Below the pieces are notes generated by a model that worked only from the letters and a program-made list of their open reading frames with translations, searched no databases and was not told the DNA's origin. The translations under genes were made by a program, and so were the position numbers. Shown one piece after another: positions 763 to 58,219 of a DNA stretch of 64,000 nt. Position 1 is the stretch's first letter; each line of letters starts with the position of its first letter. This stretch comes from Pseudomonadota bacterium (GTDB taxonomy: Bacteria; Pseudomonadota; Alphaproteobacteria; Rhodobacterales; Rhodobacteraceae): NCBI GenBank assembly GCA_020161615.1, contig JAIUPD010000003.1, positions 310,001 through 374,000 on the forward strand. Reading direction: 5' to 3'.

Positions 763-873
763 GGCAAGACTCCCTGGCAGGTTCCGGGCACTCTGCCAGA
801 GGGCCGGACAAAGGGCCAGCCGCCCGGCCGTCACGATGCCGCGAGTCGGGAGGCGCAAGTCGGACGCCGCGCC

Positions 874-1920
874 TCAGCCCCGCAGCAGCGCCTCGGCGCT
901 GGGCAGGGGGGCGGCGTCGTGCTGGGCCAGGACCTCGGCCAGACGCTTGTCCATCACCGCCTTCCACAGGGGCGGCACCAGCGCCAGCATGGCCATGGCC
1001 GGCAGCGGCGCGGGCAGCATGGCCGACCCCTCGGGCACGGTGAGCTGCGGATAGGGCCGCGCGGGATGGGCATGGTGGTCCGAATGGCGCGGCGCGTTCA
1101 GCGTCACGGCCGAGGAATACCAGCCGACCGAATTCCAGGCGTGCCAGGGCCCGGCCGGTTCGAACTTGCCATTGGCCAGCCGCCGCCGCTTCAGCCCGTA
1201 ATGCTGGACGTAATCGGCGACCAGCATCTGCGACTGGGTATGGGCGCAGAGCGCCACGTAGATCAGCAGCCCCTTCAGCCCGAAAAGCGCGAAGGCCAGA
1301 ACCAGAAGCGTCACCTCGCCGGTCATGTAGAAGACATAAGGGTTGATGCGCTTGCGCCCCGAGCGGCGGGTCATCGCCTTTTCCGCCCGATAGCCGGTGA
1401 TGAAACTACCGTACCAGGCCTTGGGCAGGAAGGACCAGAAGCCCACCCCCTTGTCGGCCGACACCGGGTCCTGCGGCGTCGCCACATAGGGATGATGCAC
1501 GAAGCGATGGGCCGAGACATGGTGGCCGAAAAGGAAACCGATATAGACCGCCGTGCCGAGCCCGGTCATGAACCGGTCCGAACGGTGGATCAGCTCATGC
1601 GAGGCGGGGTTGCCGATCTGGCCGAAAAACAGGCCGAAGCCCAGGATTCCGGCCACCCAATCCAGCCCGTGCAGGTTATGGGTCAGCGCCCAAACACCCA
1701 GGGGCAGATGCGTCAGCTGCAGGAAGCCCAGCAGGATCAGCAGGTTGTCGCCCACCGGCATCTCGCTTTCGTCGGCCGGGTCGGGGAATTGATCGACGGC
1801 GATCCACATCAGGCCGATCGAGACCGGGGCAAGCCAGATGGCCCAGCCGCCATGGAAGGCGCCCCAGGCCAGCAAAGCCGCCGGCAGAAGGGTGGCGAAA
1901 GTGAAGATGGTCAGGCGCAT
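874..1920 (-). CDS. alkB: Alkane 1-monooxygenase (AlkB family, membrane di-iron)
   Basis: A 348-residue integral membrane protein with several hydrophobic segments. It carries the histidine boxes of membrane di-iron hydroxylases: HELIH at about 108-112, H-x3-HH followed by VATPQDP at about 138-151, the HYG motif at about 240 and HSDHH at about 279-283. The family oxidises the terminal carbon of n-alkanes or similar chains with O2 and electrons from rubredoxin; no rubredoxin gene is adjacent. The second box starts with Ala-His rather than the Glu-His seen in Pseudomonas AlkB, so the substrate may differ. The start at 1920 begins MRLTIF; longer in-frame starts lack hydrophobic or conserved sequence. 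It is divergent from ftsY. Confidence 0.85.
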   Translation of the reverse strand: MRLTIFTFATLLPAALLAWGAFHGGWAIWLAPVSIGLMWIAVDQFPDPADESEMPVGDNLLILLGFLQLTHLPLGVWALTHNLHGLDWVAGILGFGLFFGQIGNPASHELIHRSDRFMTGLGTAVYIGFLFGHHVSAHRFVHHPYVATPQDPVSADKGVGFWSFLPKAWYGSFITGYRAEKAMTRRSGRKRINPYVFYMTGEVTLLVLAFALFGLKGLLIYVALCAHTQSQMLVADYVQHYGLKRRRLANGKFEPAGPWHAWNSVGWYSSAVTLNAPRHSDHHAHPARPYPQLTVPEGSAMLPAPLPAMAMLALVPPLWKAVMDKRLAEVLAQHDAAPLPSAEALLRG

Positions 1921-2054
1921 GAGCGGGTCCAGAGCACGGGTACGGTTAACGGATACGCGCGGATTTGGGCAAGCATAAGGCATTGCGCCCCTTCCATCCA
2001 TGCGACCGAGAGGCTACTTGCTGGAAAACAGCCCGAAACCGGCCCGGAGGCCCC

Positions 2055-3086
2055 ATGTCCTTCTTCGGAAAGCTCAAGGAACGGATGTTCCGCTCGTCCT
2101 CGAAGCTCGACGAGGGGCTGGATGCGCTGGTCGCCGCCGAACCCGCCCCCGAGGCGCCGGATGCGCCGATCCCCTCGCCCGCGCCGATCGTCGCCCCCGA
2201 TGCCGCGAAACCGGGGCTGCTGTCGCGGCTGACCGGGCGGCAGGACGCGCCCCGCCGGGTGCTGGACGACGCCTTTGTCGAGGAGCTGGAGGATCTGCTG
2301 GTGCAGGCCGATCTGGGCGTGGATACCGCGCTGAAGGTTACGGCCAATATCGCCGCGGGCCGCTTCGGCCGCCGCGTCACCACCGCCGAGATCAAGGAGG
2401 CGCTGGCCGCCGAGATCGCGCGCATCATGGAACCGGTGGCGCGCCCCCTGCCCCTTTACGCCAAGAAGCCGCAAGTCGTGCTGGTGGTCGGCGTCAATGG
2501 CGCGGGCAAGACCACGACCATCGGCAAGCTGGCCAGCCAGTTCCGCGCCGCTGGCAAGTCGGTGATCATCGCCGCGGGCGACACGTTCCGCGCCGCGGCG
2601 GTGGAACAACTCCAGGTCTGGGGCCAACGCGCGGGCGTGCCGGTGATGACCGCGCCCGAGGGCTCGGACCCCGCCTCGCTCGCCTATGACGCGCTGACCC
2701 GGGCTCAGGCCGAGGGCGCCGACCTCTTGATGATCGACACCGCGGGCCGCCTGCAGAACCGCGCCGATCTGATGGAGGAATTGGCCAAGATCGTCCGCGT
2801 CCTGCGCAAGAAGGACCCGTCCGCGCCGCACAACACCCTGCTGGTGCTGGATGCGACCACCGGCCAGAACGCCCTGACCCAGGTCGAGGTCTTCCGGCAG
2901 ATGGCCAATGTCTCGGGCCTGATCATGACCAAGCTGGACGGCACGGCGCGGGGCGGCGTTCTGGTGGCGCTGGCCGACCGGTTCGGCCTGCCGATCCATG
3001 CCATCGGCGTGGGCGAACAGATCGACGACCTCGATTCCTTCGACCCGCAGGATTTCGCCGCTGCCCTCACCGGCACCGGCCCGTGA
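2055..3086 (+). CDS. ftsY: Signal recognition particle receptor FtsY (GTPase)
   Basis: A 343-residue SRP receptor. It docks the Ffh-nascent chain complex at the inner membrane and, with Ffh, hydrolyses GTP to hand ribosomes to the SecYEG channel. The acidic/Pro-Ala N-terminal A region (first ~60 residues) is short, as in many alphaproteobacteria. The NG domain shows the P-loop GVNGAGKTTT (~146), DTFRAAA, DTAGR (~228), TKLDGTARGG (~292) and a C-terminal region ending near GEQIDDLDSFDP. The ATG at 2055 has a GGAGG ribosome site 5 bp upstream; the longer frame from 1965 has none. A convergent MgtC-like gene begins 5 bp after the stop. Confidence 0.96.
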   Translation: MSFFGKLKERMFRSSSKLDEGLDALVAAEPAPEAPDAPIPSPAPIVAPDAAKPGLLSRLTGRQDAPRRVLDDAFVEELEDLLVQADLGVDTALKVTANIAAGRFGRRVTTAEIKEALAAEIARIMEPVARPLPLYAKKPQVVLVVGVNGAGKTTTIGKLASQFRAAGKSVIIAAGDTFRAAAVEQLQVWGQRAGVPVMTAPEGSDPASLAYDALTRAQAEGADLLMIDTAGRLQNRADLMEELAKIVRVLRKKDPSAPHNTLLVLDATTGQNALTQVEVFRQMANVSGLIMTKLDGTARGGVLVALADRFGLPIHAIGVGEQIDDLDSFDPQDFAAALTGTGP

Positions 3087-6746: not shown

Positions 6747-7919
6747 TCACTTGCCTTCGGCGGCGGAGGCGGCGGTATCGAGGCGGGCGACCGCCTCGGT
6801 GATATCCGCGTCGGGGATGTTCAGCGCGGGCAGCAGGCGCAGCACATTGTCCGCGGCGGGGACCACCAGCACGCCCGCCTCGCGGGCGGCGGCGGCGAGT
6901 TCGGCCGCGGGCTTCTTGCACTTCAGCCCCAGCATCAGCCCCAGGCCGCGCACTGTCTCGAACGTGTCGGGATGGGCCGCGACCAGCCCTTCGAGCCGCT
7001 GGCGCAGCAGGCCCGCCTTGCGGCTGACCTCGTCCAGAAACCCGGGATCCGAAACGATCTGGCTGACCTTCAGCCCCACGGCGCAGGCCAGCGGGTTGCC
7101 GCCATAGGTCGAGCCATGCGTGCCCGCCACCATGCCCGAGGCTGCCTCTTCGGTGGCCAGCACCGCGCCCAGCGGGAAGCCGCCGCCGATGCCCTTGGCG
7201 ACCATCATGATATCAGGCGCCACACCGGCCCATTCATGGGCGAAGAGCTTGCCAGTCCGGCCCATGCCGCATTGCACCTCGTCGAGGATCAGCAGCGCCC
7301 CGGTCCGGTCGCAGGCGGCACGGATCGCGCGCAGGTCTTCCTCGGGCATCGGGCGGATGCCACCCTCGCCCTGCACGGGTTCGACCAGCACGGCGCAGAC
7401 GCTGTCATCCATCGCCGCCTCGAAGGCCGCCATGTCGCCCCAGGGCAGATGCTTGAACCCGGGCATGAGCGGACCGAAGCCCTTGACCATCTTCTCGCTG
7501 CCCGAGGCGGCGATGGCGGCGGTCGAGCGGCCGTGGAAGGCCCCTTCGAAGGTCAGGATCGTCTCGCGCGGGGCGCCCTTCTCGTAATGGTACTTGCGCG
7601 CCATCTTGATGGCGAGTTCGGCGGTCTCGGTGCCGGAATTGGTAAAGAAGACCGTATCGGCAAAGGTCTTGTCGACCAGAAGATCGGCCAGCGCCTGCTG
7701 CTCGGGGATCTTGTAAAGGTTCGAGACATGCCAGAGCTTGCCGGCCTGCTCGGTCAGCGTGGCCACCAGCTCGGGATTGGCGTGGCCCAGCGCGTTGACG
7801 GCGATCCCCGCCCCCATGTCGAGGAATCGGCGCCCGTCCGCCTCGATCAGCCACGAGCCTTCGCCCTTCACGAAGGAAAGAGGCGTGCGGTTATAGGTCG
7901 GCAGAACGGTCGAAATCAT
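6747..7919 (-). CDS. argD: Acetylornithine aminotransferase (class III PLP enzyme)
   Basis: A 390-residue PLP aminotransferase. It converts N-acetylglutamate semialdehyde to N-acetylornithine in arginine synthesis and may also work on succinyldiaminopimelate. Seen: SNLYKIPEQQALA, FTNSGTEA, FHGRSTAA, LDEVQCGMGRTGK and the PLP lysine in MVAKGIGGGFPLGA. Start ATG at 7917-7919 (MISTVLPTYNRTPLSF) is typical. It is the first gene of the argD-argF unit. Confidence 0.95.
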   Translation of the reverse strand: MISTVLPTYNRTPLSFVKGEGSWLIEADGRRFLDMGAGIAVNALGHANPELVATLTEQAGKLWHVSNLYKIPEQQALADLLVDKTFADTVFFTNSGTETAELAIKMARKYHYEKGAPRETILTFEGAFHGRSTAAIAASGSEKMVKGFGPLMPGFKHLPWGDMAAFEAAMDDSVCAVLVEPVQGEGGIRPMPEEDLRAIRAACDRTGALLILDEVQCGMGRTGKLFAHEWAGVAPDIMMVAKGIGGGFPLGAVLATEEAASGMVAGTHGSTYGGNPLACAVGLKVSQIVSDPGFLDEVSRKAGLLRQRLEGLVAAHPDTFETVRGLGLMLGLKCKKPAAELAAAAREAGVLVVPAADNVLRLLPALNIPDADITEAVARLDTAASAAEGK

Positions 7920-43342: not shown

Positions 43343-43849
43343 TCAGCCCGCCGCTGCGCTGAGGAAAGCCGCGCTCACCACCGCCAGCGCCTCGGCCCTC
43401 AGCCGCGGCAGGTCGGCCAGCGCCACCTGCGGCCCGCCCCCCGGGACCAGCCGCGCGGTCCAATCCTCATCACGCATCTCGCGCCACTCCACATTCAGAT
43501 GCACGCGCGTATGGTCGAAGAGATGCCGCAGCGCCCGGGGCGGCAGATGGGCGGCGAAATCGACCTCGGCCGGATCGGGCACCAGCGATGCGACCGGCTG
43601 ACCAGCCCGATGCGCGGCAATCGCTTCGCCCATCCGCCTCGCTTCCAGCGACAGAAGCCCAATCCGCCACGCAAGCGAGGGCGCGGCGCCGGCATAGAGC
43701 GCCGCATCGGTCGTGTCGTTCAGCAGCCGCGCGACCTGGGCGGTCAGACGGCGGGCCTGCAACAGGTCCCCGGCCGGGGCGCCGGGCGCGTCGTAGCGCG
43801 CGCCCTTGCCCTGCCGCTCGATCAGCGCCTGACGCGCCGCGTCGGTCAC
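43343..43849 (-). CDS. Maleylpyruvate isomerase-like protein (DinB/MDMPI-type four-helix protein)
   Basis: A 168-residue protein, last gene of the gentisate operon, starting with a GTG at 43847-43849 that is 5 bp from the end of the gentisate dioxygenase gene. It looks like the helical N-domain of mycothiol-dependent maleylpyruvate isomerases: an early LTAQVARLLNDTTDAALY and a C-terminal LADLPRLRAEALAVV. In that family the zinc histidines lie in HVLAHLA-like and REVWIHA-like stretches; here those read WRIGLLSLEARR and RAEALAVV, without the histidines. Its place suggests it still serves isomerisation of maleylpyruvate to fumarylpyruvate, possibly with glutathione, but this is not proven. Confidence 0.55.
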   Translation of the reverse strand: MTDAARQALIERQGKGARYDAPGAPAGDLLQARRLTAQVARLLNDTTDAALYAGAAPSLAWRIGLLSLEARRMGEAIAAHRAGQPVASLVPDPAEVDFAAHLPPRALRHLFDHTRVHLNVEWREMRDEDWTARLVPGGGPQVALADLPRLRAEALAVVSAAFLSAAAG

Positions 43850-43853
43850 GGCT

Positions 43854-44954
43854 TCATTCCTCGACAAAGGCGGTGCGGTCGAAATGCAGCCGCTCCATGA
43901 TCGGCGCATCCGAGAAATGGAAAAGGTCGAAGCCGGTCTCGGCCTGCAATTTCCACGGGACCCAGGACGGCACCACGAACATATCGCCGATGTCGAGCCG
44001 ATGCTCGACGCCGCCCATGACCACCGAGCCCCGGCCCGAGAAGACCTGGAACACCGACGACCCCACATCGCGCCGCATCCGGCTGGAGGCCCCTGCCCTG
44101 AGCCGGTGGAACTGGCAGCGGATCGTCGGCATCACATCGCCGCCGGTCGTCGGGTTGACGTAGCGGATGCCCGCATGGCCCAGGCTGTAGGTCGCGGGCT
44201 GGCCCTCATCCTCCAGCAGCAACTGCTCGGTCAGGGCGCGGTCGGTATGTTCCCAGCGGAAGGCCGCCAGTGGGCTGGAGACGGTGTTTTCCAGCTTCGA
44301 CAGCGGCCTGAGCCCCGGATGCGCCCAAAGCCTTTCGCCCTGGCTGAAGCGCGGCGTCGCGTAATCCGTCACCCGGTCGGCGCCGAATTCGAAGAAACCC
44401 ACGTCGTTTTGCTTGCTGAACGGGATATCCAGCCCGTCGATCCAGGCCATTGGCTGGTCGGTGTCGTTGTGGTGGCCGTGGAAATTCCAGCCCGGCGTCA
44501 GCAGCAGATCGCCCCGCGACATGCGCACCGGATCGCCGTTGACCACGGTCCAGACGCCCTCGCCCTCGACCACGAAGCGGAAGGCGTTCTGCGCGTGGCG
44601 ATGCTCGGGCGCGGTCTCGCGCGGGCCGAGGTACTGGATCGCCGCCCAGAGCGTCGGACTGACATAGGCCGCACCGCCCAGCCCGGGGTTGGCAAGGCCG
44701 ATGGCCCGCCGCTCGCCGCCCCGCCCGACCGGGACCAAAGCGCCCGAGGCCTCGGCCAGGGGCAGCAGATCCTTCCAGCGCCAGAGATGCGGCACCGCTT
44801 TGGGCTTCGGGTGCATCGGCATCAGATCGCCCGTCTGGGTCCAGAGCGGGATCAGGTGGTGATCGGCAAAGCCCTGATAGAGCGCGCGCAGTTCCGGCGT
44901 ATCCTCGGGCTGCATGCCATGGGCGACGGTTTCGTGGGTCAGATCCTTGGTCAT
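43854..44954 (-). CDS. Gentisate 1,2-dioxygenase
   Basis: A 366-residue bicupin that opens the gentisate ring to maleylpyruvate with Fe(II) and O2. The first cupin has the iron site APEHRHAQNAFRFVVEGEGVW and the second the matching PWKLQAETGFDLFHFSD region; FHGHHNDTDQPMAWIDGLD is typical of gentisate dioxygenase rather than salicylate or 1-hydroxy-2-naphthoate enzymes. Start ATG 44954 overlaps the end of the fumarylpyruvate hydrolase gene by 4 bp. Confidence 0.93.
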   Translation of the reverse strand: MTKDLTHETVAHGMQPEDTPELRALYQGFADHHLIPLWTQTGDLMPMHPKPKAVPHLWRWKDLLPLAEASGALVPVGRGGERRAIGLANPGLGGAAYVSPTLWAAIQYLGPRETAPEHRHAQNAFRFVVEGEGVWTVVNGDPVRMSRGDLLLTPGWNFHGHHNDTDQPMAWIDGLDIPFSKQNDVGFFEFGADRVTDYATPRFSQGERLWAHPGLRPLSKLENTVSSPLAAFRWEHTDRALTEQLLLEDEGQPATYSLGHAGIRYVNPTTGGDVMPTIRCQFHRLRAGASSRMRRDVGSSVFQVFSGRGSVVMGGVEHRLDIGDMFVVPSWVPWKLQAETGFDLFHFSDAPIMERLHFDRTAFVEE

Positions 44955-45667
44955 TCCGCAGCCTCGCTGAGGCCCGCGCGGGGCCCGATGATGGTTGTCA
45001 ACTCGCCCAGCCCCTCGATGCTGACCACGCAAATATCGCCCGGCACCAGCGCCCCCACGCCCGCGGGCGTACCGGTCATGATCAGATCGCCCGCCCTGAG
45101 CGCGATGGAGCGCGAGAGGATGGCGATGATCTCGGGCACGGTCCAGATCAGCTCCGACAGATCGGCGTCCTGCATCACCTTACCGTTGACCGTCAGCCGG
45201 ATCGAGCCCGTCGCCGGATGCCCGACCTCGGCCGCCTTGCGGATCGCCGCGATGGGGGCCGAGCGGTCGAAGGCCTTGCCCCAATCCCAGGGCCGCCCCT
45301 TGTCGCGCGCTTCAAGCTGCAAATCGCGGCGGGTCAGGTCGTTGCCCACGGCATAGCCATAGACGTGATCCAGCGCCTGCCCCTCGGGGATATTCACCCC
45401 GCCCTTGCCGATGGCCACGACCAGTTCGGCCTCGTAATGGAAATTCCCGGTCTCGGGTGGATAGGCGACGGTTTCGCCATCCCCGACGACAGCATCGGCG
45501 GGCTTGGTGAAGAAGAAGGGCGGGTCGCGGTCCGGGTCCTTGCCCATCTCGCGCGCATGGGCGGCATAATTGCGGCCGACGCAAAAGATCCGGCGCACGG
45601 GGAAGCGCGCCTCGTCGCCCAGCACGGGCAGGCTGGGGGTCGGCATCGGGGGGAAGACGTAATCCAT
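44951..45667 (-). CDS. Fumarylpyruvate hydrolase (FAH family)
   Basis: A 238-residue FAH-fold hydrolase that splits fumarylpyruvate to fumarate and pyruvate, the last step of the gentisate route. Key parts: IFCVGRNYAAHAREM, FFFTKPADAV, the metal ligands in NFHYEAELVVAIG, NDLTRRDLQ and IMTGTPAGVG. Four-base overlap with the dioxygenase gene and a 20-bp gap after the hydroxylase-ligase gene show a single operon. Confidence 0.92.
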   Translation of the reverse strand: MDYVFPPMPTPSLPVLGDEARFPVRRIFCVGRNYAAHAREMGKDPDRDPPFFFTKPADAVVGDGETVAYPPETGNFHYEAELVVAIGKGGVNIPEGQALDHVYGYAVGNDLTRRDLQLEARDKGRPWDWGKAFDRSAPIAAIRKAAEVGHPATGSIRLTVNGKVMQDADLSELIWTVPEIIAILSRSIALRAGDLIMTGTPAGVGALVPGDICVVSIEGLGELTTIIGPRAGLSEAAE

Positions 45668-45687: not shown

Positions 45688-48411
45688 TCAGCGCGCGGCG
45701 AGCGTCTGGCGGTCGATCTTGCCGGTGCCGGTCTTCGGCAGCGCGTCGCAATACTCGATCAGGCGGGGGTATTTGAACGGCTGCAACCGCTCCTTGACGA
45801 AATCACGGATCGAGGCGTCCATGGCCGGCCCCGGCTGGGCGCCGCCCCGCAGATGCACGAAGGCCCTCAGCGTCATCCGCTTGTCCTCCAGCGCGTGGGC
45901 GAGGACGGCGCATTCGTGGATATCGGGATGCTCGGCCAGGCATTTCTCCACCTCGCCGGGCCAGACCCATTGGCCCGAGACCTTGATCAGCTCATCAGCG
46001 CGACCCTGGAAGTAATAATACCCGTCCCGCTCGACAAAGCGGTCGCCGGTATAAATCCAGTCGCCGCGCATCGTGTCGCGGGTCTTGTCGGGCCGGTTCC
46101 AATAGGCGGGGGCCGAGGAATGGCCACGCACCAGCATCACCCCTTCCTCGCCCGGCCTGGCCTCGGCCCCCTCGGGCGTCAGCAGCCGGATTTCATAGCC
46201 CGGGACGCGCGCGCCTGCCGCGCCCAGCCGGTGATCGTCCAGCCGGTTCGACAGATACACATGCAGCATCTCGGTCGAGCCCAGACCCTCGGTCGGGCCA
46301 TGCCCCGCCAGCCGCACCCAGATGTTGTAGACATCCTCGGACAGGATCTCGGCCGCGGACATGCTTTGCCTCAGGGACGAGAAATCGGCGCCCTCCGCCC
46401 GCGGGCTGCGGGCGATGGCGGTGAAAAGCGTGGGCAGGCCGAAGAAGACCGTCGGCCGGAACCGCTCGATTGTGTCGATCACCGCCTCGGGCCGGGGCTG
46501 GCCGGGCATCAGCACCGTGGTCGCACCGACCGAAAAGGGGAAGGTGAAGGCATTGCCGAACCCATAGGCGAAGAAGATCTTCGGCACCGAGAAGCACAGA
46601 TCGTCCGCGCGCAGCCGCAGCACGTTCCGCCCGAAGGACAGGTCGGAATAGGCCATGTCGTGATGCAGATGAACGATCCCCTTGGGCCGCCCGGTCGAAC
46701 CCGAGGAATACATCCAGAAGGCCATGTCGTCGGGCCCGGTATCGGCCGCCTCCAGCGTGGTCGGCTGGCCTTGCAGAAAGGCCTCGGCCGTCTCGAACCC
46801 CTCGGCCGCGCCGTTCACGGTGATGACGCGGGCCACATCGGTCCCCGCCAGAACCTCAGGCCGGAAGTGCGCCGCCAGCGCGGCCTCGCACAGGGCCATC
46901 CGCGCGCCGGTGTCCGTCAGGAAATAGTTCAGCGTCTCGTCCGGGGTCTGGGTGTTCAGCAGCACCGGCACAAAGCCCGCCCGCACCGCGCCGAAGAAGG
47001 CGGCGGGATAAGCGGGCGTGTCGTCGAGGAAGAAGGGAATACGCTCGCCCCGTTTCAGCCCGGCCTTGGTGAAGGCATGCCCCCAGCGCGCGGCCTCGGC
47101 GATCAGCTCGCGGTAGGTCAGCGTTCCGGCGGGGCCGGTGACGGCGGGCTTGTCCGGGTTGCGGGCAAGGTTCTGCCACAGGATCTCGGAACAGTTGGGA
47201 TGCGCGGCCTTGTCGAAACCGATCTCCAGAGCGCCCGGCGTCCCCTCGCCCACCGGGTCAGTGATCGCGTCGGGATGGGCGCGTTTCTCGGCCTCGTAGC
47301 GGGCGGCGAAACCGGGGGCGAGTTTGCGCAGGCGGTCCATGTCGACCCGGCCCGAGCGGGTGATGTAGTCGAAGGCGAAGTCGAGGGGCGCCTTCTCCAT
47401 CCGCTCGCCGAACGTGTCGTACCACCCGGCCGAGGTATTGGCCGCATCGACAATCTTGCGGGCAATCGGCAGGCGCGCGGCTTCGAACCGGGCCAGCCCC
47501 TCGCGCCAATCCTCGGTCGCGGCCAGGGCCTCGACCAGCGCGATCACATCCTCGAAGGCCAGCCGCGTGCCCGAGCCGATGGAGAAATGCGCGGTATGCG
47601 CGGCGTCGCCGACGATGACGTAGCGGTCATGCACCCAGCGCTTGCACCAGAGGCGCGGGAACTGCCGCCAGATCGACTTGTTGGTGATCAGCTCGGCCCC
47701 GTCCAGCACCTCGGCAAACAGCTCCTGACAGAGCGCTGCGCTGGCCTTTTCGTCCATCTGCCCGAAACCGTAGCGCTCGAAGGTCTCATGCTCGCATTCG
47801 ACGATGAAGGTCGAGCGGTCGGGCGCGAAACGGTAGTGATGCGCGTTCATCGGCCCCTTGGGGGTGCGGATGAAGCTCTGGGTCAGCGTGTCGAAGGGCC
47901 GCGTCGCGCCGAACCAGGCGAAATGGCAGTTGAAATGCTCGATCTCGGGCGCGAAGTCGGCCTCGAAACTGCGGCGGACCAGCGAATTGAGGCCATCCGC
48001 GCCCAGCACCACATCCGCCTCCAGCGCCGCGAGGTCGCTGATCGTGGTCTCGAACCTTATGTCGATGCCCAGCCCCTCGGCGTGCTCGCGCAGGATCTCG
48101 ATCAGGTCGAGCCGCCCCAGCGCCGTGAAGCCCACCCCGTCCAGGATCACCTGATCCTCGGGATGGTTCAGGGTCATGTTCTGCCAGCGCTCCATATGCG
48201 GGACGATCAGCGCGTGCATCTCCGGGTCCGAGGCGCGCAGGAAATCCAGCGCCTGATCCGAGAAGACCACCCCGAAGCCGAAGGTCGCCCCCTTCGGGTT
48301 CTGCTCGAACACCGTGACCTGAACCTGCGGCATCTTCCGCCGCATCAGGATCGCCGCATAGAGGCCCGCAGGCCCGCCCCCGACAATGGCCATGCGCTGA
48401 AGTTGCGCCAT
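45688..48411 (-). CDS. Fused flavin aryl-CoA hydroxylase and aryl-CoA ligase
   Basis: One uninterrupted 907-residue frame. Residues 1 to about 385 are a group A flavin monooxygenase: FAD dinucleotide fold IVGGGPAGLYAA (~9-20), FGFGVVFSDQALD, and VGDAAHTAHFSIGSGTRLA (~267), most like salicylyl-CoA 5-hydroxylase and 2-aminobenzoyl-CoA monooxygenase. Residues about 400 to 907 are an acyl-adenylate/CoA ligase of the benzoate-CoA type: YSSGSTGRPKG (~568), TEGLGSTEMLH, and a C-terminal PKTGTGKIDR with the catalytic Lys (~898). It can therefore activate an aromatic acid and hydroxylate the CoA ester. With gentisate genes after it, salicylate (or 3- or 4-hydroxybenzoate) is the likely substrate. ATG 48411 follows GGGAGGGG. 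Divergent IclR regulator. Confidence 0.85.
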   Translation of the reverse strand: MAQLQRMAIVGGGPAGLYAAILMRRKMPQVQVTVFEQNPKGATFGFGVVFSDQALDFLRASDPEMHALIVPHMERWQNMTLNHPEDQVILDGVGFTALGRLDLIEILREHAEGLGIDIRFETTISDLAALEADVVLGADGLNSLVRRSFEADFAPEIEHFNCHFAWFGATRPFDTLTQSFIRTPKGPMNAHHYRFAPDRSTFIVECEHETFERYGFGQMDEKASAALCQELFAEVLDGAELITNKSIWRQFPRLWCKRWVHDRYVIVGDAAHTAHFSIGSGTRLAFEDVIALVEALAATEDWREGLARFEAARLPIARKIVDAANTSAGWYDTFGERMEKAPLDFAFDYITRSGRVDMDRLRKLAPGFAARYEAEKRAHPDAITDPVGEGTPGALEIGFDKAAHPNCSEILWQNLARNPDKPAVTGPAGTLTYRELIAEAARWGHAFTKAGLKRGERIPFFLDDTPAYPAAFFGAVRAGFVPVLLNTQTPDETLNYFLTDTGARMALCEAALAAHFRPEVLAGTDVARVITVNGAAEGFETAEAFLQGQPTTLEAADTGPDDMAFWMYSSGSTGRPKGIVHLHHDMAYSDLSFGRNVLRLRADDLCFSVPKIFFAYGFGNAFTFPFSVGATTVLMPGQPRPEAVIDTIERFRPTVFFGLPTLFTAIARSPRAEGADFSSLRQSMSAAEILSEDVYNIWVRLAGHGPTEGLGSTEMLHVYLSNRLDDHRLGAAGARVPGYEIRLLTPEGAEARPGEEGVMLVRGHSSAPAYWNRPDKTRDTMRGDWIYTGDRFVERDGYYYFQGRADELIKVSGQWVWPGEVEKCLAEHPDIHECAVLAHALEDKRMTLRAFVHLRGGAQPGPAMDASIRDFVKERLQPFKYPRLIEYCDALPKTGTGKIDRQTLAAR

Positions 48412-48479
48412 CGTTTTCCCCTCCCGACCGAAACGCGTCGCGGCGGACGTTAGAAAATAATTCCCCAGGATGCAACTAA

Positions 48480-48494
48480 TTCTGTATAGCGGAA
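48480..48494. promoter_or_regulatory. Candidate IclR operator between fused enzyme and regulator
   Basis: TTCTG-TATAG-CGGAA, an imperfect inverted repeat in the middle of a 171-bp AT-rich intergenic region between divergent starts. A second AT-rich dyad, GAAAATAATTCC, lies nearby (about 48,453). IclR-family activators usually bind such 14-15 bp dyads overlapping the promoter. Its effector may be the aromatic acid. Confidence 0.38.
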
Positions 48495-48582
48495 ACCATA
48501 AGATACCCGCCACGCCCCGGCCAGCGTTGTCTGCCGGGGTGGTCGCTGGTATCAACGCGGGACCGAAACGGGGGCCGGACGG

Positions 48583-49386
48583 ATGACGAAAGAGCCGAAA
48601 GACAGCGGTGCGGGCGGGGGCATCCAATCCCTCGACGCGGCGCTGAAGGTGCTGGCGCAAATGGCCCGCTCGGGCGGGCCGATCTCGCTGACCGATCTCG
48701 CCCGCGAAACCGACATGCCGCCCAGCAAGGTGCACCGCTACCTCGCCTCGTTCCTGGCGGCTGGGCTGGTGGCGCAGGGCGGGCGGTCGGGAAAATACGA
48801 CCTGGGCCGCGGCGCGATCGAGTTGGGACTCGCCGCGCTGGACCGGCACGATTTCGTCAACGCCCCCTCGGCCCATCTGGCTGACTTGCGCGAGGAGACG
48901 GGTCTCACGGTGCTGCTGTCGGTCTGGGGCGCGGGCGGCGCGACCGTGGTGCGGTGGGAGCGCGCGGCCTCGCCGGTCGTCACCTCGATGGGGCTGGGGA
49001 CCACGCTGCCGCTCCTCAATTCCTCGACCGGACGGGTGTTCCTGGCCTATGGCCCCCGCCCGCCGATGGAACAGCAGCTGGGCCTGGAACTGGCCCGCGC
49101 CCGCAAGACGCCCGAAATCCTGTCGGATGCCGAACCCAGCCGCGCCGGGATCGAGGCGCTGGCCGAAAAGGTTCGCGCGCAGGGCTATGCCACGGTTGCA
49201 GGCGATTACATCCCGGGGCTGGCGGCGGTGGCGGCGCCGCTGCTGGACTGGCAGGGACAGGCGCAGGCGGTAATCACCCTGATCGGCACCAGCCGCGAGA
49301 CGATCCGCGAAGGTGCCCCGCCGATCGCCCGCCTGCTCGATTTCTGCCGGGCGCATTCTTTCGCGCCCCTCGGCGCGGCGGGCTGA
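48583..49386 (+). CDS. IclR-family transcription regulator
   Basis: A 267-residue regulator with an N-terminal winged helix (GGIQSLDAALKVLAQMAR, TDMPPSKVHRYLASFLAAG) and a C-terminal effector domain ending AVITLIGTSRETIREGAPP. It is divergent from the gentisate operon, hence its probable controller; members of this family often sense aromatic acids. ATG 48583 follows GGACGG-like sequence only, so the start is moderately sure. Its stop is 6 bp from that of the convergent META gene. Confidence 0.88.
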   Translation: MTKEPKDSGAGGGIQSLDAALKVLAQMARSGGPISLTDLARETDMPPSKVHRYLASFLAAGLVAQGGRSGKYDLGRGAIELGLAALDRHDFVNAPSAHLADLREETGLTVLLSVWGAGGATVVRWERAASPVVTSMGLGTTLPLLNSSTGRVFLAYGPRPPMEQQLGLELARARKTPEILSDAEPSRAGIEALAEKVRAQGYATVAGDYIPGLAAVAAPLLDWQGQAQAVITLIGTSRETIREGAPPIARLLDFCRAHSFAPLGAAG

Positions 49387-50842: not shown

Positions 50843-51463
50843 TCACCTCAGATCGTCAATCAGCTCCAGCGCCCCATCCGGCAGCGGCCGCTGAAGCTCG
50901 GCCGCGGGGGCGCCCTGTAGCCAGACTTGCCAGTCGTCGGGCTCGATCAGGATGACAGGCATCGCCTTGGGATGGATCGGCCGGACCTCGGCATTGGGCT
51001 CGCAGGTGAGAAAGGCGAACAGGTCGTCGGTCGTCTCACCGTCCTTCAGCTTGCGCATCGACCGCCACTCGGGCACCCATAGCCCCGCAAAGAAAGCCTG
51101 ATGCTCGCTGATCACCCGGAACCAGGCGTTGCCCGCTCCCTTGCCGCGCGGCTCCGCAAATCGGTCGAAAGGCACGAGACAGCGGTGGTCAGGCCCCAGC
51201 CATCGGCGCCAATGAGGCGAGCCGACATTTCGGACGTTGGTGACGCCCCGGTCGATCCCCGAGGGGCTGTGATATTGCGGCGGCGAGGGGAGGCCCCAGC
51301 GCGCCACCCGCAGCACCGCCCCATCCTCCCCCTGCGTCAGGATCGGTGCCAGCCTGTCGGGGTAGATGTCGCCGGGCTCCATGTTGCCCGCGCGGTTGCT
51401 GATTCCGGGAAACAGCCTGCGCATCGCCTCGACGGCGGTGGTCTGGTTGTAGAGGTTGCACAT
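50843..51463 (-). CDS. SOS response-associated peptidase (YedK/HMCES family)
   Basis: A 206-residue SRAP-domain protein. Cys2 (MCNLYNQ), which in this family forms a DNA-protein crosslink with abasic sites, is present after Met removal. Other conserved segments: RWGLPSP, TNVRN, CLVPFDRFAEP and HPKAMPVIL. Start ATG 51463 places Cys at position 2, as required; the longer frame from 51,523 would not. A LexA box lies upstream of the next gene on the same strand (51,743). Confidence 0.9.
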   Translation of the reverse strand: MCNLYNQTTAVEAMRRLFPGISNRAGNMEPGDIYPDRLAPILTQGEDGAVLRVARWGLPSPPQYHSPSGIDRGVTNVRNVGSPHWRRWLGPDHRCLVPFDRFAEPRGKGAGNAWFRVISEHQAFFAGLWVPEWRSMRKLKDGETTDDLFAFLTCEPNAEVRPIHPKAMPVILIEPDDWQVWLQGAPAAELQRPLPDGALELIDDLR

Positions 51464-51526
51464 GGATCCGTTCATCCCTCGCAATCTGAGGGTGACCATG
51501 CGAGCCGGCCAGCGACCGGTCAATCC

Positions 51527-53042: not shown

Positions 53043-53293
53043 GGCAGCGCCTGCGTAATCGACCCGGGCGGATCGCCGCAGGTGACATAGGGCTCAGGCC
53101 ACACCGGGTCAGGGTGATGGCGCGGCAAGATGCCCGGGCCAATCTTGGACCAGTCAATGGGCGTGGCCTCCTGCACCGTCGCCAGCTTCGCGCGCATCGC
53201 TTCGGCCTGTTCCGCGGTCATCGCGCCGCCGGTCGCGGCGAGAAAGCCATCCAGCCATGCGCGGTATTCGCTTAGGGTCATGTTGCTCTCCAT
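53039..53293 (-). CDS. Small lysis-cassette protein of unknown function
   Basis: An 84-residue protein, start ATG 53,291-53,293 in a TGATG overlap with the endolysin stop, so translationally coupled to it; another ATG at 53,281 is possible. A helical N-terminal half with WLDGFLAATGGAM and a Pro-rich tail. No family recognised. It lies between endolysin and Rz. Confidence 0.6.
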   Translation of the reverse strand: MESNMTLSEYRAWLDGFLAATGGAMTAEQAEAMRAKLATVQEATPIDWSKIGPGILPRHHPDPVWPEPYVTCGDPPGSITQALP

Positions 53294-53844
53294 CACGGCA
53301 AACCCCGAATGCAGATCGCATGCTCGCGCTGGCGGCGCGGGAAGAGGATCCGCGCGCGCACCCCGGCGCGGGTCCACCAGGTCAGCGCCTCGCAGGCCCC
53401 GCGCACGTCGCCTGCATTGAGGCGGCGCACCGCGGTCGATCCCGAGACGGCGCCGATCCCGATGTTGTAGGTCAGCGACGAGAACGCGACATCGACCCAG
53501 ACGGTGAGCGACAGATAGCCGGTCTCGGTCAAGCTGTTGCGGAAGCCCTGCCAGTAGCGCTGCGCCTCGCGCCGCAGGTCAGCGCGGCACTCGGCCCTGG
53601 TCCGCACGTCGCCCATGCGCACCCCCACGGTGATGCCCGAGCAGATCGTCGGCACCGGCGGGCTGGCGATGCGGTCAAGATAGGCCTCGCAGCGGTCACC
53701 GTTGCAGGGCAGGCCCTCTTCCTGCTCCAGGAGCGGCACCAGGTGGGTCGCGGTCTCGGGCCAGGTCGGCGCCCCGTTCTGGGGCGGGACGGGCGCGGCG
53801 GCGGTGCAGATCGCGAAGACCGCGCAGAGGATGGACTGGATCAT
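53293..53844 (-). CDS. Phage endolysin, lysozyme-like (GH24)
   Basis: A 183-residue lysozyme-type muramidase. The Glu-Asp-Thr catalytic triad is visible: Glu in EQEEGLPC, Asp in RCEAYLDRI, Thr in GITVGVRMG, with the following ECRADLRREAQRYW typical of GH24. The N-terminus (MIQSILCAVFAICTAAA) is a signal peptide or SAR-type anchor, so export may not need the holin. It is downstream of the holin-like gene. Confidence 0.84.
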   Translation of the reverse strand: MIQSILCAVFAICTAAAPVPPQNGAPTWPETATHLVPLLEQEEGLPCNGDRCEAYLDRIASPPVPTICSGITVGVRMGDVRTRAECRADLRREAQRYWQGFRNSLTETGYLSLTVWVDVAFSSLTYNIGIGAVSGSTAVRRLNAGDVRGACEALTWWTRAGVRARILFPRRQREHAICIRGLP

Positions 53845-54056
53845 CCCGACACCTTGGGCTGCTTGACCAGCCGACCAAGGGGGCCGTAGACGAAGAGGAT
53901 GTTCGCCAGCGCGAAGAAGACCCACGGCGCCACGGGGTCATAGCCCAGCAAGCGATACAGCAGCTCGGGCGCCCATAGGGCGATCATGCCCAGGTAGAAA
54001 GCCCGCATCGAGTGCGAGCGAAGCGCCACCTGGCGCCAGTTGTCGACCAGTTTCAT
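53841..54056 (-). CDS. Holin-like small membrane protein
   Basis: A 71-residue protein with two hydrophobic segments (FYLGMIALWAPELLYRLLG and APWVFFALANILFVYG) and a charged N-terminus, immediately before the endolysin (4-bp overlap). Size, membrane segments and place fit a holin or pinholin; no sequence homology is claimed. Confidence 0.65.
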   Translation of the reverse strand: MKLVDNWRQVALRSHSMRAFYLGMIALWAPELLYRLLGYDPVAPWVFFALANILFVYGPLGRLVKQPKVSG

Positions 54057-54346
54057 CGTCCGTTCTCCCTCAGGTATCGGGTCAGATCCGCTACGCCCGC
54101 CTCGATGCGGACCAGGCTTGTCTCGATCGAGCGCAGCCGCTCGTTGGTGCGGGCCTCGGCGGCCTGACCGGCGGCCAGTTGCTCGCCATGCCGAGAGATC
54201 TGGGCAGCGTTGGCGCGGCTGCGCTCATCGACCTGCTCGACCCGGGCGCTCATCGCGAACCAAGCGCCGGTCAGGCTGACCAGCAGCACGCCGATGGTCA
54301 GCAGGTTGCCCAGCGAAATGGTCATCGGGATCTTGGGGGCGGTCAT
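54053..54346 (-). CDS. Membrane-anchored coiled-coil prophage protein
   Basis: A 97-residue protein: one transmembrane segment (LLTIGVLLVSLTGAWFAMS) then a coiled coil (VEQVDERSRANAAQISRHGE and further). Overlaps the neighbours at both sides by 1-4 bp. In lysis cassettes such proteins may assist the holin; an antiholin role is possible. Function unknown. Confidence 0.6.
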   Translation of the reverse strand: MTAPKIPMTISLGNLLTIGVLLVSLTGAWFAMSARVEQVDERSRANAAQISRHGEQLAAGQAAEARTNERLRSIETSLVRIEAGVADLTRYLRENGR

Positions 54347-55173
54347 CAGGTGAATGCCCCGCGGGCGATCACGCGCGTGAAGTCGTCATCGAGGACGGTC
54401 AGGGGCGCGCGCTCTGAGACGGCCAGATCCTCGATCCAGCCCCGGTAAAGGCGCGTGTTGGGCGCGGCGCCGAAGCCCGGGGGCACGCCCCATTTGGGCT
54501 TCATGGCCGAGAAATCGCCCACGTTGTCGTCACCAACAACCGTGGCCAGCAGGACCGTGCCCAGGGCCGAGCGCATCCGCATGCCGACGCCCCCGGCGTT
54601 GCGCCAGTAGGCGATCTGGGTGACCTGACCGAAGATGTTGGCGTTGGGATCGGTGTTGCCCCCCTGGAACGTCGAGCCGTTGGTCTGGCGGCGGTAGTCG
54701 ATCCGGGGAATACTGCTCTGCGACCACGTGACCAGCTCGGGTCCGGCCGAATAGCTGGTGGCCGCACACTGGAACATGGGCGCAATGGAGCCGCCCGTCG
54801 CATACCATGCCTCAGAGGTCGGCATCTTGTACCAGCCGACCACCATGAAATACTGCGGGCCACCATGGATCGAGGCCAGGCATCCCGCCGGGCCCTCGAC
54901 ATAGGCGCGGTTGGTGATCGGCGCGGCGAAGTCAAAGCCGCCGCCCGCAAAGATGGTGCCGTCGCCGGTCTCGACAAAGGCGCCGTCGCCCACATCGGCC
55001 GCGTCTTTGACCACATCGGCCCCGATCGGATTGCCGCCCGCCCAGCAATAGCGAAACGCGAGGTCGAACATGAAGGTCACGCCCCCGTTGTCGCCCGTCA
55101 GGATGGGATCGCGGCGCAGGGTCACGAGGTCGGGCGCGGTGGAGGTGGAGAGGGATTTGATGACGACAGGCAT
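54346..55173 (-). CDS. Prophage structural protein, possibly a tail or fibre-associated component
   Basis: A 275-residue protein starting with AGGAGC before ATG 55173, between the tail fibre and the coiled-coil gene. Beta-rich (PVVIKSLSTSTAPDLVTLRR; YRGWIEDLAVSERAPLTVLD), which suggests a beta-sandwich such as a lectin-like domain. Only the place argues for a tail function. Confidence 0.55.
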   Translation of the reverse strand: MPVVIKSLSTSTAPDLVTLRRDPILTGDNGGVTFMFDLAFRYCWAGGNPIGADVVKDAADVGDGAFVETGDGTIFAGGGFDFAAPITNRAYVEGPAGCLASIHGGPQYFMVVGWYKMPTSEAWYATGGSIAPMFQCAATSYSAGPELVTWSQSSIPRIDYRRQTNGSTFQGGNTDPNANIFGQVTQIAYWRNAGGVGMRMRSALGTVLLATVVGDDNVGDFSAMKPKWGVPPGFGAAPNTRLYRGWIEDLAVSERAPLTVLDDDFTRVIARGAFT

Positions 55174-55183
55174 TTCAAGCTCC

Positions 55184-58100
55184 TTAGGCTTCGAGCATTT
55201 CGAGGAAACCAAATTGCAGGACGCGGCCTCCGTTGGGAGGTTCGGGGTGGATGCCATCCGCATTGAAAAGGGGGCGATCTGAGGTGCTGGCGTAGTCAGC
55301 CGGGACGAGCCCGAAATCCCGCTGGAAATCCCGGAAGGCGATCCCTTCCGCCGCCGCGATCTCTCGCGCCTGCGCTGCATAGAGCGCCATGGGGTAGGTG
55401 TTTTCGCGCATGTTTTCGGGCGGCATCGCCAGCAGAATATCCGGCACCGCCGCAGCGGCGCGCAGGCGCTCGATCAGCGTCTCGGCGTGCCCGGCCCAGG
55501 TCTCGGGTGACATGACCACTTGGCTGTTAGTACCATCGAGGACGGTGAAGGTATCGACCTCCAGCACCTCCCAACCCGCGCGCTGCTGTGCTTCGTCACG
55601 GGCGGTCCACTGGCTGATGTTCGACCCGCTACCGCCCAGCTTGTGAAACCGCACGCCCGAGGCGTCCGACAGCGCGTTGTCGCCGCACAGCTTGACCGTG
55701 CCGCTGACCACCTCGATCTCGATCACATGCGCCCCAGCGGTCAGGGCAATGTCGAAGGTCTGGACCGCATCCACCGTGCCCTGCACGTTTTGGCTGGTCC
55801 AGGAGCCGCCATCGACCCGGTGGCGCACGACGCCATCGGCCGTGCCGATGTAGACGACGCGCAGGGCGGTGTGATCGGGCGAGGCCGGGACCGCGCGCCG
55901 GACATAGGCCCCGGCGGTCGAGCTGGAGACGTGCGACAGATCGGGGCCGTCACTGCCGTTGTAGACCGTCGCCCAGGCGCCGTGGAAATGCAGGGTATAG
56001 GAGGACGGGCGCACGTTGCCGTTGATGCCGCTGGGCTGCGTCCCGGGATAGACCCATGGCCCGCCCGCGCCACCATACCAACCATAGCCCGTCCAGCCGC
56101 CGCCCGCGTCACCGTATTGAGCCATGAGCAACTGCGCAGCGGGTCCGGTCCAGCGGACGGCGGCCTGGGTATAGCTGTCGCCGATAGCCGCGATGTTGAT
56201 CTGGGTCGCCTCGCCGAGCCTGCATTTGATCATCTTGTAGTGGCAGTTGCGCAGGGTCTCGCGGCCAAATTGCGGGGCCAACGTTACGCCGCTGGGGGAC
56301 AGGCTGGCGTCCAGGCGCGTGCCGAGGTCCGGCGCTGACCCGCGCGCCGCCACAACCTCGGCCGAGGCGTCGTCCCCGGGTGCGGGCGCGGCCCACAGGA
56401 CTTTCAGATCGGCGTCGGTCGCGATGATCGGCGGAGCCAAAGGATCGTTGATCTCGTAATACACCAGCTCGAAATCGGCGGTGCCGAGCTTGGCCAGGGC
56501 GATGTGCCAAAGGGCGCCTTTGTCCACCCGTCCGAAGATCTTGTTCATAGCCTCTGCGAAGACCATCAGATCGTCATCGCCCTGAAAGCTCAGCAGATCG
56601 AAGACCGCGCGGAAATCGTGCAAGAACCCCAAGCCGTCATCGACCCAGTCCGAGCCGTCGAAATGCCAGAAATGCCCCGTGCTGCTGATCCAGGCCGTCT
56701 CGCCGGTGGTCGGGGTAAGATCGTCCAGATCGGCGGTCAGAGCGAGGCTGTAATCCACGGCCACCAGTTCCGACGCGGCGTCCAGCGCGGCCTCGGCGCC
56801 CAGCCGCGCCTCCTGTGCGGCAGTGGCGTTGCCCTCGCTGTCGGCAAGATTCGCGGCCTCTTCGGCGCGGTCGGCGTCTACGCCCGCGGATTCGGCGGCG
56901 GTCTCGGCCCGCCAGCGATCGGTCACGTCCTCAAGCCACACCTCAGCGAAGCGCCAGACGCCATCCGTATCGGCGTCCTCAGTCGCGATTTTCGCCCGGG
57001 CGAGCCGGCCGTCGGCGTCAAGGACATGATCCACACCCTCGACATCTTGAGAGAGCGTGGCGGCGATCTGAACACGCCCGTCCGCAACCGAGATCGCCGC
57101 TGCTGCACGCACGGCGATGGTCTCGACGTTGGTGGTGCCGTCTTCCTCCCAGGTCTCCACCAGATAGGCGACGGTCGAGATGCCCGAGCTGTTCGCGGCG
57201 CAGATCCCGTCGAATCTGGCCTCATAGACGCGCCCATTGGTCAGGGGGACCCATTCGCGATGGGCGATGATATGCGAGCCGCCACCAGCGATCTCCACCG
57301 ATGGACCGAGCAGAGCGTCAAGCGCCATGTCGTCGGAGGTATAGCCGGACAGATCCTCGGGCCGCCCCTCGTCGGCGGCTACGAACAGCCACGGGCGCCC
57401 GGTTCGACCGCGAGCAGCGGCGACCCCAGCCGAATCGAGCGCCCGGGCTTCCGCCTCATCGACAAGATCGGAAGTCTCTCCGACAAGCTCCTCAACCTCC
57501 GCCAGGCTGGTTCCAGTGCTGGTGACCCCTTCCGCCCAGACCGGCTCGTCCGGCAGCGCCTCCGCAAAGGTGATGGTGGCCTCATCGAGCGTCCAAGCAT
57601 GCCCGAAGCGCTGAGCCACACCCCCGATGAACACGCGGATCCTGTCCGACCCGAGCGAAGCCTGGGCGGCGGTGAGCGTCAGTTCCGTCTCGCCGGGGTT
57701 GAGGCCGAAATCGACACGCCAAGCGACGAGCTTGTTGGCAGCGGCTACCGCAATATCACGCGCGGCTTCAACGACCCCTCGATCAATCGAAACCTGCTCG
57801 GCATCTTCCGCCACCTGGTCAGCATCCTCGCTGATCTGGTCGGCGATTTCCTGCATGATCGCGAGGGTTGCAAACCTGATGCGAAGCCAGTTCCCGGAAT
57901 AGGTGGGCCCGGCATCATCGACCAGAGCGACCAGCACCTCATCCCTGGCGAACGACACATCATCTACGGCGCCACCGAGAGTAACCACCCATGCGTCGCG
58001 GGCCCGGATGTCGGTTTGGTCCGGTCGCTCATCCGGGAATGCGCCGCTGGCAGCGCTCCAGGTGCCGACGAACCTGAGGCCGCTCCCGAGCGCGACGTTG

Positions 58101-58219
58101 ATGGGTTCCACCAGGTCGTTGAGCTGCGCATCGAAGGCAGCGCGGAATGCCTCATCACCCGCGTCGTACTGCTCGACGAACGTCCACGGCCGCGAATATG
58201 TGAGATCGGTCAGCGGCAT
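55184..58219 (-). CDS. Tail fibre/receptor-binding protein with C-terminal SGNH hydrolase
   Basis: A 1011-residue protein. The N-terminus (MPLTDLTYSRPWTFVEQYDA) is a virion-anchor type start with helical repeats rich in Ala-Glu-Asp (residues ~110-170 and ~440-500), as in trimeric fibres. The C-terminal third is an SGNH/GDSL hydrolase: AAIGDSYTQ (~680) and DGIHPEPP (~988) carry the catalytic Ser and the Asp-x2-His pair. It probably deacetylates or cleaves cell-surface polysaccharide at adsorption. It is the largest gene of the late operon. Confidence 0.78.
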   Translation of the reverse strand: MPLTDLTYSRPWTFVEQYDAGDEAFRAAFDAQLNDLVEPINVALGSGLRFVGTWSAASGAFPDERPDQTDIRARDAWVVTLGGAVDDVSFARDEVLVALVDDAGPTYSGNWLRIRFATLAIMQEIADQISEDADQVAEDAEQVSIDRGVVEAARDIAVAAANKLVAWRVDFGLNPGETELTLTAAQASLGSDRIRVFIGGVAQRFGHAWTLDEATITFAEALPDEPVWAEGVTSTGTSLAEVEELVGETSDLVDEAEARALDSAGVAAARGRTGRPWLFVAADEGRPEDLSGYTSDDMALDALLGPSVEIAGGGSHIIAHREWVPLTNGRVYEARFDGICAANSSGISTVAYLVETWEEDGTTNVETIAVRAAAAISVADGRVQIAATLSQDVEGVDHVLDADGRLARAKIATEDADTDGVWRFAEVWLEDVTDRWRAETAAESAGVDADRAEEAANLADSEGNATAAQEARLGAEAALDAASELVAVDYSLALTADLDDLTPTTGETAWISSTGHFWHFDGSDWVDDGLGFLHDFRAVFDLLSFQGDDDLMVFAEAMNKIFGRVDKGALWHIALAKLGTADFELVYYEINDPLAPPIIATDADLKVLWAAPAPGDDASAEVVAARGSAPDLGTRLDASLSPSGVTLAPQFGRETLRNCHYKMIKCRLGEATQINIAAIGDSYTQAAVRWTGPAAQLLMAQYGDAGGGWTGYGWYGGAGGPWVYPGTQPSGINGNVRPSSYTLHFHGAWATVYNGSDGPDLSHVSSSTAGAYVRRAVPASPDHTALRVVYIGTADGVVRHRVDGGSWTSQNVQGTVDAVQTFDIALTAGAHVIEIEVVSGTVKLCGDNALSDASGVRFHKLGGSGSNISQWTARDEAQQRAGWEVLEVDTFTVLDGTNSQVVMSPETWAGHAETLIERLRAAAAVPDILLAMPPENMRENTYPMALYAAQAREIAAAEGIAFRDFQRDFGLVPADYASTSDRPLFNADGIHPEPPNGGRVLQFGFLEMLEA

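Follow-up and report, generated by a model that had tools for sequence, protein, structure and literature searches.

A hydroxylase-CoA ligase gene fusion at the head of a gentisate operon, a probable single-chain form of the CoA-dependent salicylate pathway

Background

The coenzyme A (CoA)-mediated salicylate route of Rhizobium sp. X9, said to have been described by Zhou et al. in 2021, reportedly employs separate enzymes. Separate genes annotated as cehI (gentisyl-CoA thioesterase), cehH (salicylyl-CoA hydroxylase), and cehG (salicylyl-CoA ligase) are present in NZ_CP048525, flanked by an IclR gene and by fumarylacetoacetate (FAA) hydrolase, maiA, cupin, and isomerase-type genes; on the plasmid NZ_CP015090, cehH and cehG are annotated as separate genes as well. 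In Streptomyces sp. WA46, salicylate passes through salicylyl-CoA and gentisyl-CoA to gentisate (PMC4600096). The subject of this work is a gene in which hydroxylase and ligase are instead joined in one chain. It lies in a 64,000-nucleotide stretch of Rhodobacteraceae DNA (contig JAIUPD010000003.1, positions 310,001 to 374,000), referred to here as the window. An earlier reading of the window, made from the sequence only, did not know such a pathway as described; the Rhizobium and Streptomyces routes already represent it with separate enzymes, and the window gene is a fused variant of this CoA-dependent salicylate pathway.

One gene for hydroxylase and ligase

The hydroxylase and the ligase are fused in one uninterrupted frame of 907 codons (Table 1), whose ATG start is consistent with homologues; the plus strand of the same interval is likewise an open frame. 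The domain borders lie close to those that the sequence-only reading had drawn (residues 1-385 and 400-907, compared with 1-378 and 401-907 here). Residues 6-376 match the N-terminal part only of NF006101 (model positions 2-384 of 768) with 380.3 bits, below the cut-off of 1078 that applies to the whole model. This half also has a FAD_binding_3 match at residues 8-323 and all three flavin adenine dinucleotide (FAD) motifs, GGGPAG, ADGLNS, and GDAAH, and its nearest solved structure is VioD. Residues 410-904 belong to TIGR02262, the benzoate-CoA ligase family (476.6 bits, cut-off 375.25), with AMP-binding at residues 412-771 and AMP-binding_C at 820-898. YSSGSTGRPKG and PKTGTGK, which we take to be ligase motifs, occur in the translation, and the benzoate- and anthranilate-CoA ligases 4wv3, 4eat, and 2v7b are among the best structure matches of this half.

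The codon pattern argues that the frame across the fusion is under selection. In the closest pair compared, the window gene and that of Pararhodobacter aggregans (L001), there are 170 synonymous and 45 non-synonymous codon differences in the whole gene; codons 371-410 have 11 and 1, which accords with the remainder. In three remoter pairs (L054, L002, L003) the junction shows synonymous to non-synonymous ratios of 13:7, 12:10, and 9:11, and the hydroxylase shows 106:65, 98:64, and 112:59; the lesser constraint of the junction in these pairs is expected of a linker that needs only to keep the frame. Codons 359-470 of the window gene contain no in-frame ATG or TTG; the sole in-frame GTG is codon 387, and no Shine-Dalgarno-like run was seen by eye in the 20 bases 5' of it.

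The fusion is the first gene of a tight minus-strand operon that continues with hydrolase-type, gentisate dioxygenase, and isomerase-type genes, so that the earlier claim of a true hydroxylase-ligase fusion feeding gentisate genes is upheld. Compared with the annotated cehH and cehG products, the hydroxylase half is 66-67% and the ligase half 70% identical. Because both halves lie in a single frame rather than in separate proteins, the gene is classed as a fused variant of the CehG/CehH/CehI pathway instead of an ordinary member. The annotated names fit the title of Zhou et al. 2021, and the reactions therefore most probably lead from salicylate through salicylyl-CoA to gentisyl-CoA. Judged from homology, we have good confidence that the window gene would encode CehH and CehG in one chain, taking salicylate to gentisyl-CoA. 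In the proposed mechanism, the C-terminal half would convert salicylate, ATP, and CoA to salicylyl-CoA, and the N-terminal FAD half would use NAD(P)H and O2 to hydroxylate this ester at C5, giving gentisyl-CoA. A hot-dog thioesterase, a CehI homologue encoded elsewhere in the genome, would then free gentisate, which the dioxygenase, isomerase, and hydrolase of the operon would degrade.

Distribution of the fusion

One genome per species was searched with patterns taken from the fused protein, and 80 of 153 confirmed relatives were kept. Among plasmids, 58 records had a single place covering at least 80% of the query, and seven of them were retrieved. Both parts are present in 86 loci (79 of the 80 from genomes and all 7 from plasmids). 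The two parts are fused in 54 of these loci and split in 32, a ratio that is no population frequency because of the way in which the relatives were kept and the patterns chosen. The fused form is spread over Rhodobacterales and Rhizobiales. A stop at the junction in near relatives, which the sequence-only reading had named as a sign against itself, does occur, in the split loci, but it is absent from the nearest relatives: the six genome loci with at least 74% best-segment identity and the plasmid locus L091 (78%) are all fused. Among 394 genomes of the same family, that of the window included (E 1e-120, two candidates scored per genome), 32 were matched; 15 have the fusion in a single match, 10 have both genes separate, and 6 have the ligase only. 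One more genome (G642) is fused too, with two matches within one 960-codon frame, bringing the fused total to 16. The fusion thus recurs, but it is not the rule in Alphaproteobacteria.

Four fused plasmid relatives (L091, L092, L093, L095) are each annotated as a single coding sequence of 909-916 codons, named only 'benzoate-CoA ligase family protein', so the hydroxylase half and the pathway are easily overlooked. A fused hydroxylase-ligase was not found in the literature by title or abstract opening, most subscription papers being beyond reach, and the terms 'benzoate', 'salicyl', 'gentis', and 'CoA ligase' are absent from the main text of PMC4921024, which surveys metabolic gene fusions.

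Several loci depart from the simple pattern. In L036 (6001-9996), L077 (6001-9989), and L093 (6743-10739) a solo hydroxylase is followed by a hydroxylase-ligase fusion, giving two hydroxylases per operon; the hydroxylase half of these fusions is only 55-57% identical to that of the window and keeps the three FAD motifs. On several plasmids of the Rhizobium leguminosarum group the gene is matched in two to four pieces, some reaching only residue 720 (H11, H12, H14-H17, H35, H36, H42, H47-H51), which suggests gene decay in that group. L076 was left out of the counts since no hydroxylase was found there; its ligase frame (516-3014) also contains pieces of a pyridoxamine oxidase and a lactate dehydrogenase, and the locus is probably a faulty contig of a metagenome-assembled genome.

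Probable history of fusion and fission

Separate ligase and hydroxylase trees, with distant paralogues as outgroup, show seven and five changes of state, respectively. A third, concatenated tree, whose 78 rows comprise 48 fused and 30 split loci, was rooted on the six rows that are basal in the separate trees; it leaves out L036, L077, and L093, with their two hydroxylases, and the near copies L013, L015, L022, L031, L037, and L065. All three trees agree in outline. The concatenated tree has five changes (bootstrap 5-95% range also 5), of which the starred branches alone force four. It places separate genes at the base, followed by one main fusion, and has two further fusions, in Bradyrhizobium archetypum (L047) and in Amorphus coralli (L045), the latter weakly resolved among the basal split rows. 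Deep within the main fusions, 15 split rows form a clade (100/99), and L069 is an extra split row on a long branch; the annotated cehH/cehG loci (L089, L090) and that of Pseudaminobacter salicylatoxidans fall in this nested clade. A single clade of the 46 main fused rows, a group chosen after the tree had been seen, is rejected (approximately unbiased test, p-AU 1.8e-6), and a mixture-model tree without the long-branch rows L052, L057, and L069 retains the 15-row clade (99) with four changes.

In accord with the trees, the gene borders differ between the two kinds of split loci. The primary ones overlap by four bases, ATGA, in 9 of 15 cases, lie 0 to 39 bases apart in five, and are separated by 2.5 kb in L069; in the 17 nested ones the candidate ligase starts lie 14-146 bases past the stop, with one alternative overlap (L079). 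The main fusion probably began as a gene pair with an ATGA overlap, and one of the clades descended from it probably re-split later; one fission is preferred over many independent fusions because the latter need more changes. Transfer or recombination between lineages is possible, and the placement of the two halves of L036, L077, and L093 in different parts of the trees indicates that such events do occur. The L047 joint (about 7115-7150) keeps an ATG preceded by GGGAG, as if an old ligase start had survived, and L047 is perhaps a young fusion that would still produce a separate ligase.

The operon dioxygenase

The dioxygenase of the window is 78% identical to that of P. salicylatoxidans (L065), which is the salicylate 1,2-dioxygenase (SDO) of PDB 2PHD save one of 368 residues. 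At SDO position 106 the window enzyme has Ala and the salicylate 1,2-dioxygenase Gly. A dioxygenase is present in the examined stretch of 37 of the 86 loci, and Ala106 is found in 36 of these (26 fused, 10 split), with Gly106 in L065 only. The G106A mutant is reported to oxidize gentisate only and to leave salicylate unconverted (PMC11109138). The window operon should therefore not cleave salicylate directly, which fits a prior 5-hydroxylation.

The same comparison bears on a well-known structure, since the 2PHD gene sits within an operon of the CoA-dependent salicylate-to-gentisate type. The L065 gene (10342-11448) and the copy on an Agrobacterium plasmid (L089, 13346-14452) differ in 3 of 368 residues and 13 of 1104 bases, one of the differences being Gly106 to Ala. 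This suggests that the P. salicylatoxidans enzyme derives from one acting on gentisate and acquired direct cleavage of salicylate recently.

The thioesterase

A CehI homologue is encoded elsewhere in the genome of the window (G000:C9:143843). It is 44% identical to the annotated Agrobacterium CehI and 73% identical to the operon-borne cehI product of Pararhodobacter sp. CCB-MM2, and together with L014, L022, and L023 it makes up a starred group of four. No salicylate genes were seen by eye among its neighbours, and contig C1 has a second, weaker match. The C9 protein may serve the pathway of the fusion. Among the 82 of the 86 loci with at least 1.8 kb of upstream sequence (52 fused, 30 split), cehI lies somewhere in the examined stretch of 28 fused and 18 split loci, and no association of fusion with cehI loss is apparent.

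An alpha/beta hydrolase gene accompanies 6 of the 54 fused loci and 1 of the 17 re-split loci but none of the 15 primary split loci (L091, 10808-11524; also L003, L010, L015, L016, L021, and L025), and a homologue with 60% identity lies beside an AraC-type gene in the genome of the window. A role as substitute thioesterase is unsupported, for L003, L021, and L025 carry this gene plus cehI. By eye these proteins resemble plant methyl-salicylate esterases, and perhaps they are esterases that supply salicylate.

Alternative readings

Several observations weigh against the assignment to a fused salicylate pathway. The names cehG and cehH are annotations in public records, and the likeness to Rhizobium sp. 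X9 rests on those names; the activity of every fused member is predicted from sequence. The thioesterase gene is unlinked to the operon, the 171 bases between the IclR gene and the fusion being without cehI, and 24 of the 52 fused loci surveyed gave no detected cehI. The dioxygenase scores below the cut-off of TIGR02272, gentisate 1,2-dioxygenase (256.4 compared with 442.1 bits), although this cut-off may simply leave out the branch of the L065 type, to which the 78% identity points. Of 385 genomes sampled across the class, 14 were matched (E 1e-150), and only the genome of the window gave a full-length match in one frame.

Channelling, in which the ligase would pass salicylyl-CoA to the hydroxylase without setting it free, is compatible with the preferred assignment, and the sequence-only reading had suggested that the ester could pass on inside the protein. 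In its favour are two consecutive activities in one chain, joints that measure 16-26 residues across the 54 fused loci, and a fusion that arose three times on the best tree. Two AlphaFold models show each domain well modelled (mean predicted local distance difference test score, pLDDT, 87.5 and 88.1), but the predicted template modelling score (pTM) is 0.62 with both alignments, and the relative placement of the domains is therefore undefined, a further point against the assignment. In addition, separate genes have re-formed in one clade, which argues that the tether is dispensable. Hydroxylase and ligase distances set against each other in a mirror comparison give r values of 0.82 for main fused, 0.70 for re-split, and 0.95 for primary split loci, no sign of tighter co-evolution in the fusions. 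Given the undefined domain placement and the re-split clade, channelling as the earlier reading framed it has no support, and we consider it improbable; the fuller proposal of a tethered single-chain salicylyl-CoA synthetase/5-hydroxylase that would hand over the CoA ester, with the separate cehH/cehG enzymes as its fission descendants, is similarly doubtful. Most simply, tethering would bring co-production in equal amounts and nearness, rather than a tunnel. The fusion-fission series nonetheless offers matched enzymes with which to measure the effect of joining consecutive enzymes: if the history is true, the ancestral separate, fused, hydroxylase-plus-fusion, and re-split versions are a natural series in which to test tethering.

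The same fusion could act on 3-hydroxybenzoate, with 3-hydroxybenzoyl-CoA being 6-hydroxylated, a route that likewise yields gentisyl-CoA; this too would count against salicylate. The ligase half matches the NCBIfam 3-hydroxybenzoate-CoA ligase HbdA (NF053567). However, the HbdA score is 360.3 bits against a cut-off of 1000, which weakens this route, and the closest named relatives are salicylyl-CoA enzymes. The annotated salicylyl-CoA enzymes have near-identical counterparts in P. salicylatoxidans (371 of 372 and 506 of 508 aligned residues). A 3-hydroxybenzoate substrate is accordingly rated unlikely.

Less likely still are 4-hydroxybenzoate (which would reach gentisyl-CoA by a side-group shift), 2-aminobenzoate, and benzoate. 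The ligase does belong to the benzoate-CoA ligase family, and the structure 4wv3 near it is an anthranilate-CoA ligase. However, the genome has dedicated genes elsewhere: PobA (4-hydroxybenzoate 3-monooxygenase) scores above its cut-off, BoxB and BoxC are joined by another benzoate-CoA ligase that reaches 716.6 bits, and a protein matching NF006101 over its full length has 1286.7 bits and a ligase gene at a distance of about 3 kb. NF006101 is presumably the 2-aminobenzoyl-CoA monooxygenase/reductase type. These substrates were therefore rejected, and the separate routes leave salicylate or 3-hydroxybenzoate as the likeliest for the fusion. Of the substrates that the sequence-only reading had offered (salicylate, 3- or 4-hydroxybenzoate), salicylate stands as the most likely and 4-hydroxybenzoate recedes; that interpretation as a whole is partly supported.

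That the open frame is due to chance or to an assembly error, with two proteins made, is very improbable even though 32 of the 86 loci have separate genes and the L047 joint retains its ATG after GGGAG, since a chance frame is rejected by the codon pattern of the closest pair and by a window junction in which no start codon with a ribosome site was seen, and an artefact by the recurrence of the stop-free joint in many separate assemblies (54 of 86 loci, 16 of 394 same-family genomes).

The operon and its surroundings

The features of the locus are collected in Table 1. The hydrolase-type product is a probable fumaryl- or maleylpyruvate hydrolase, to judge from its family. The isomerase-type protein is of the MDMPI_N (mycothiol-dependent isomerase) type and sits in an alphaproteobacterial operon; to our knowledge, mycothiol is not expected in alphaproteobacteria. 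Elsewhere in the genome there are a second gentisate-dioxygenase-like gene (contig C16, 35% identity) and a maiA homologue (contig C2, 48% identity). A promoter scan gave 0 promoter-like sites (0.6 in shuffles) and a terminator scan 1 terminator-like site (3.0 in shuffles).

Table 1. Features of the fusion locus, in window positions
Feature	Position	Strand	Remarks
Fused hydroxylase-CoA ligase gene (CehH-CehG type)	45688..48411	minus	907 codons, ATG 48411, stop 45688-45690
FAD-dependent aryl-CoA hydroxylase domain	47278..48411	minus	residues 1-378; domain matches, FAD motifs
Interdomain joint	47212..47277	minus	residues 379-400 (22 residues)
Benzoate-CoA-ligase-family domain	45691..47211	minus	residues 401-907; TIGR02262, structure matches
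Fumarylacetoacetate-hydrolase family protein	44951..45667	minus	PF01557 208 bits; ATG 20 bases past fusion stop
Gentisate 1,2-dioxygenase	43854..44954	minus	4-base overlap with hydrolase gene
Maleylpyruvate-isomerase-type (MDMPI_N) protein	43343..43849	minus	PF11716 27.2 bits, cut-off 24.2; putative GTG start
IclR-family regulator, divergent	48583..49386	plus	PF09339, PF01614
Divergent intergenic region	48412..48582		171 bases, no cehI, unlike many relatives

Farther along the window, a SRAP (SOS response associated peptidase) gene (50843-51523) lies between the operon and phage-like genes. The latter include a phage lysozyme at 53293-53925 (PF00959, 73.8 bits) and two large genes, 54346-55380 and 55184-58219, that matched no Pfam family; the interval 53293-58219 is probably the end of a prophage.

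Comparison with known systems

The closest described system is CehG/CehH/CehI of Rhizobium sp. X9. Both comprise a ligase, an FAD hydroxylase, and a thioesterase leading to gentisate, and the annotated homologues are likewise surrounded by an IclR gene and gentisate genes; hydroxylase and ligase are separate in those loci and one gene in the window, and the window operon is without cehI. SdgA/SdgC of Streptomyces sp. WA46, likened here by description rather than by sequence, share the course from salicylate through salicylyl-CoA and gentisyl-CoA to gentisate, but they are separate proteins according to the sequence-only reading. The bifunctional salicylyl-CoA 5-hydroxylase/oxidoreductase of NF006101 has a homologous N-terminal hydroxylase that is also fused to a second enzyme; the partner there is an oxidoreductase and in the window protein a ligase, and the window protein stays below the NF006101 cut-off. 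Finally, the salicylate 1,2-dioxygenase of P. salicylatoxidans is close to the window dioxygenase and is encoded in an operon of the cehI-cehH-cehG type, but it has Gly106 where the window enzyme has Ala.

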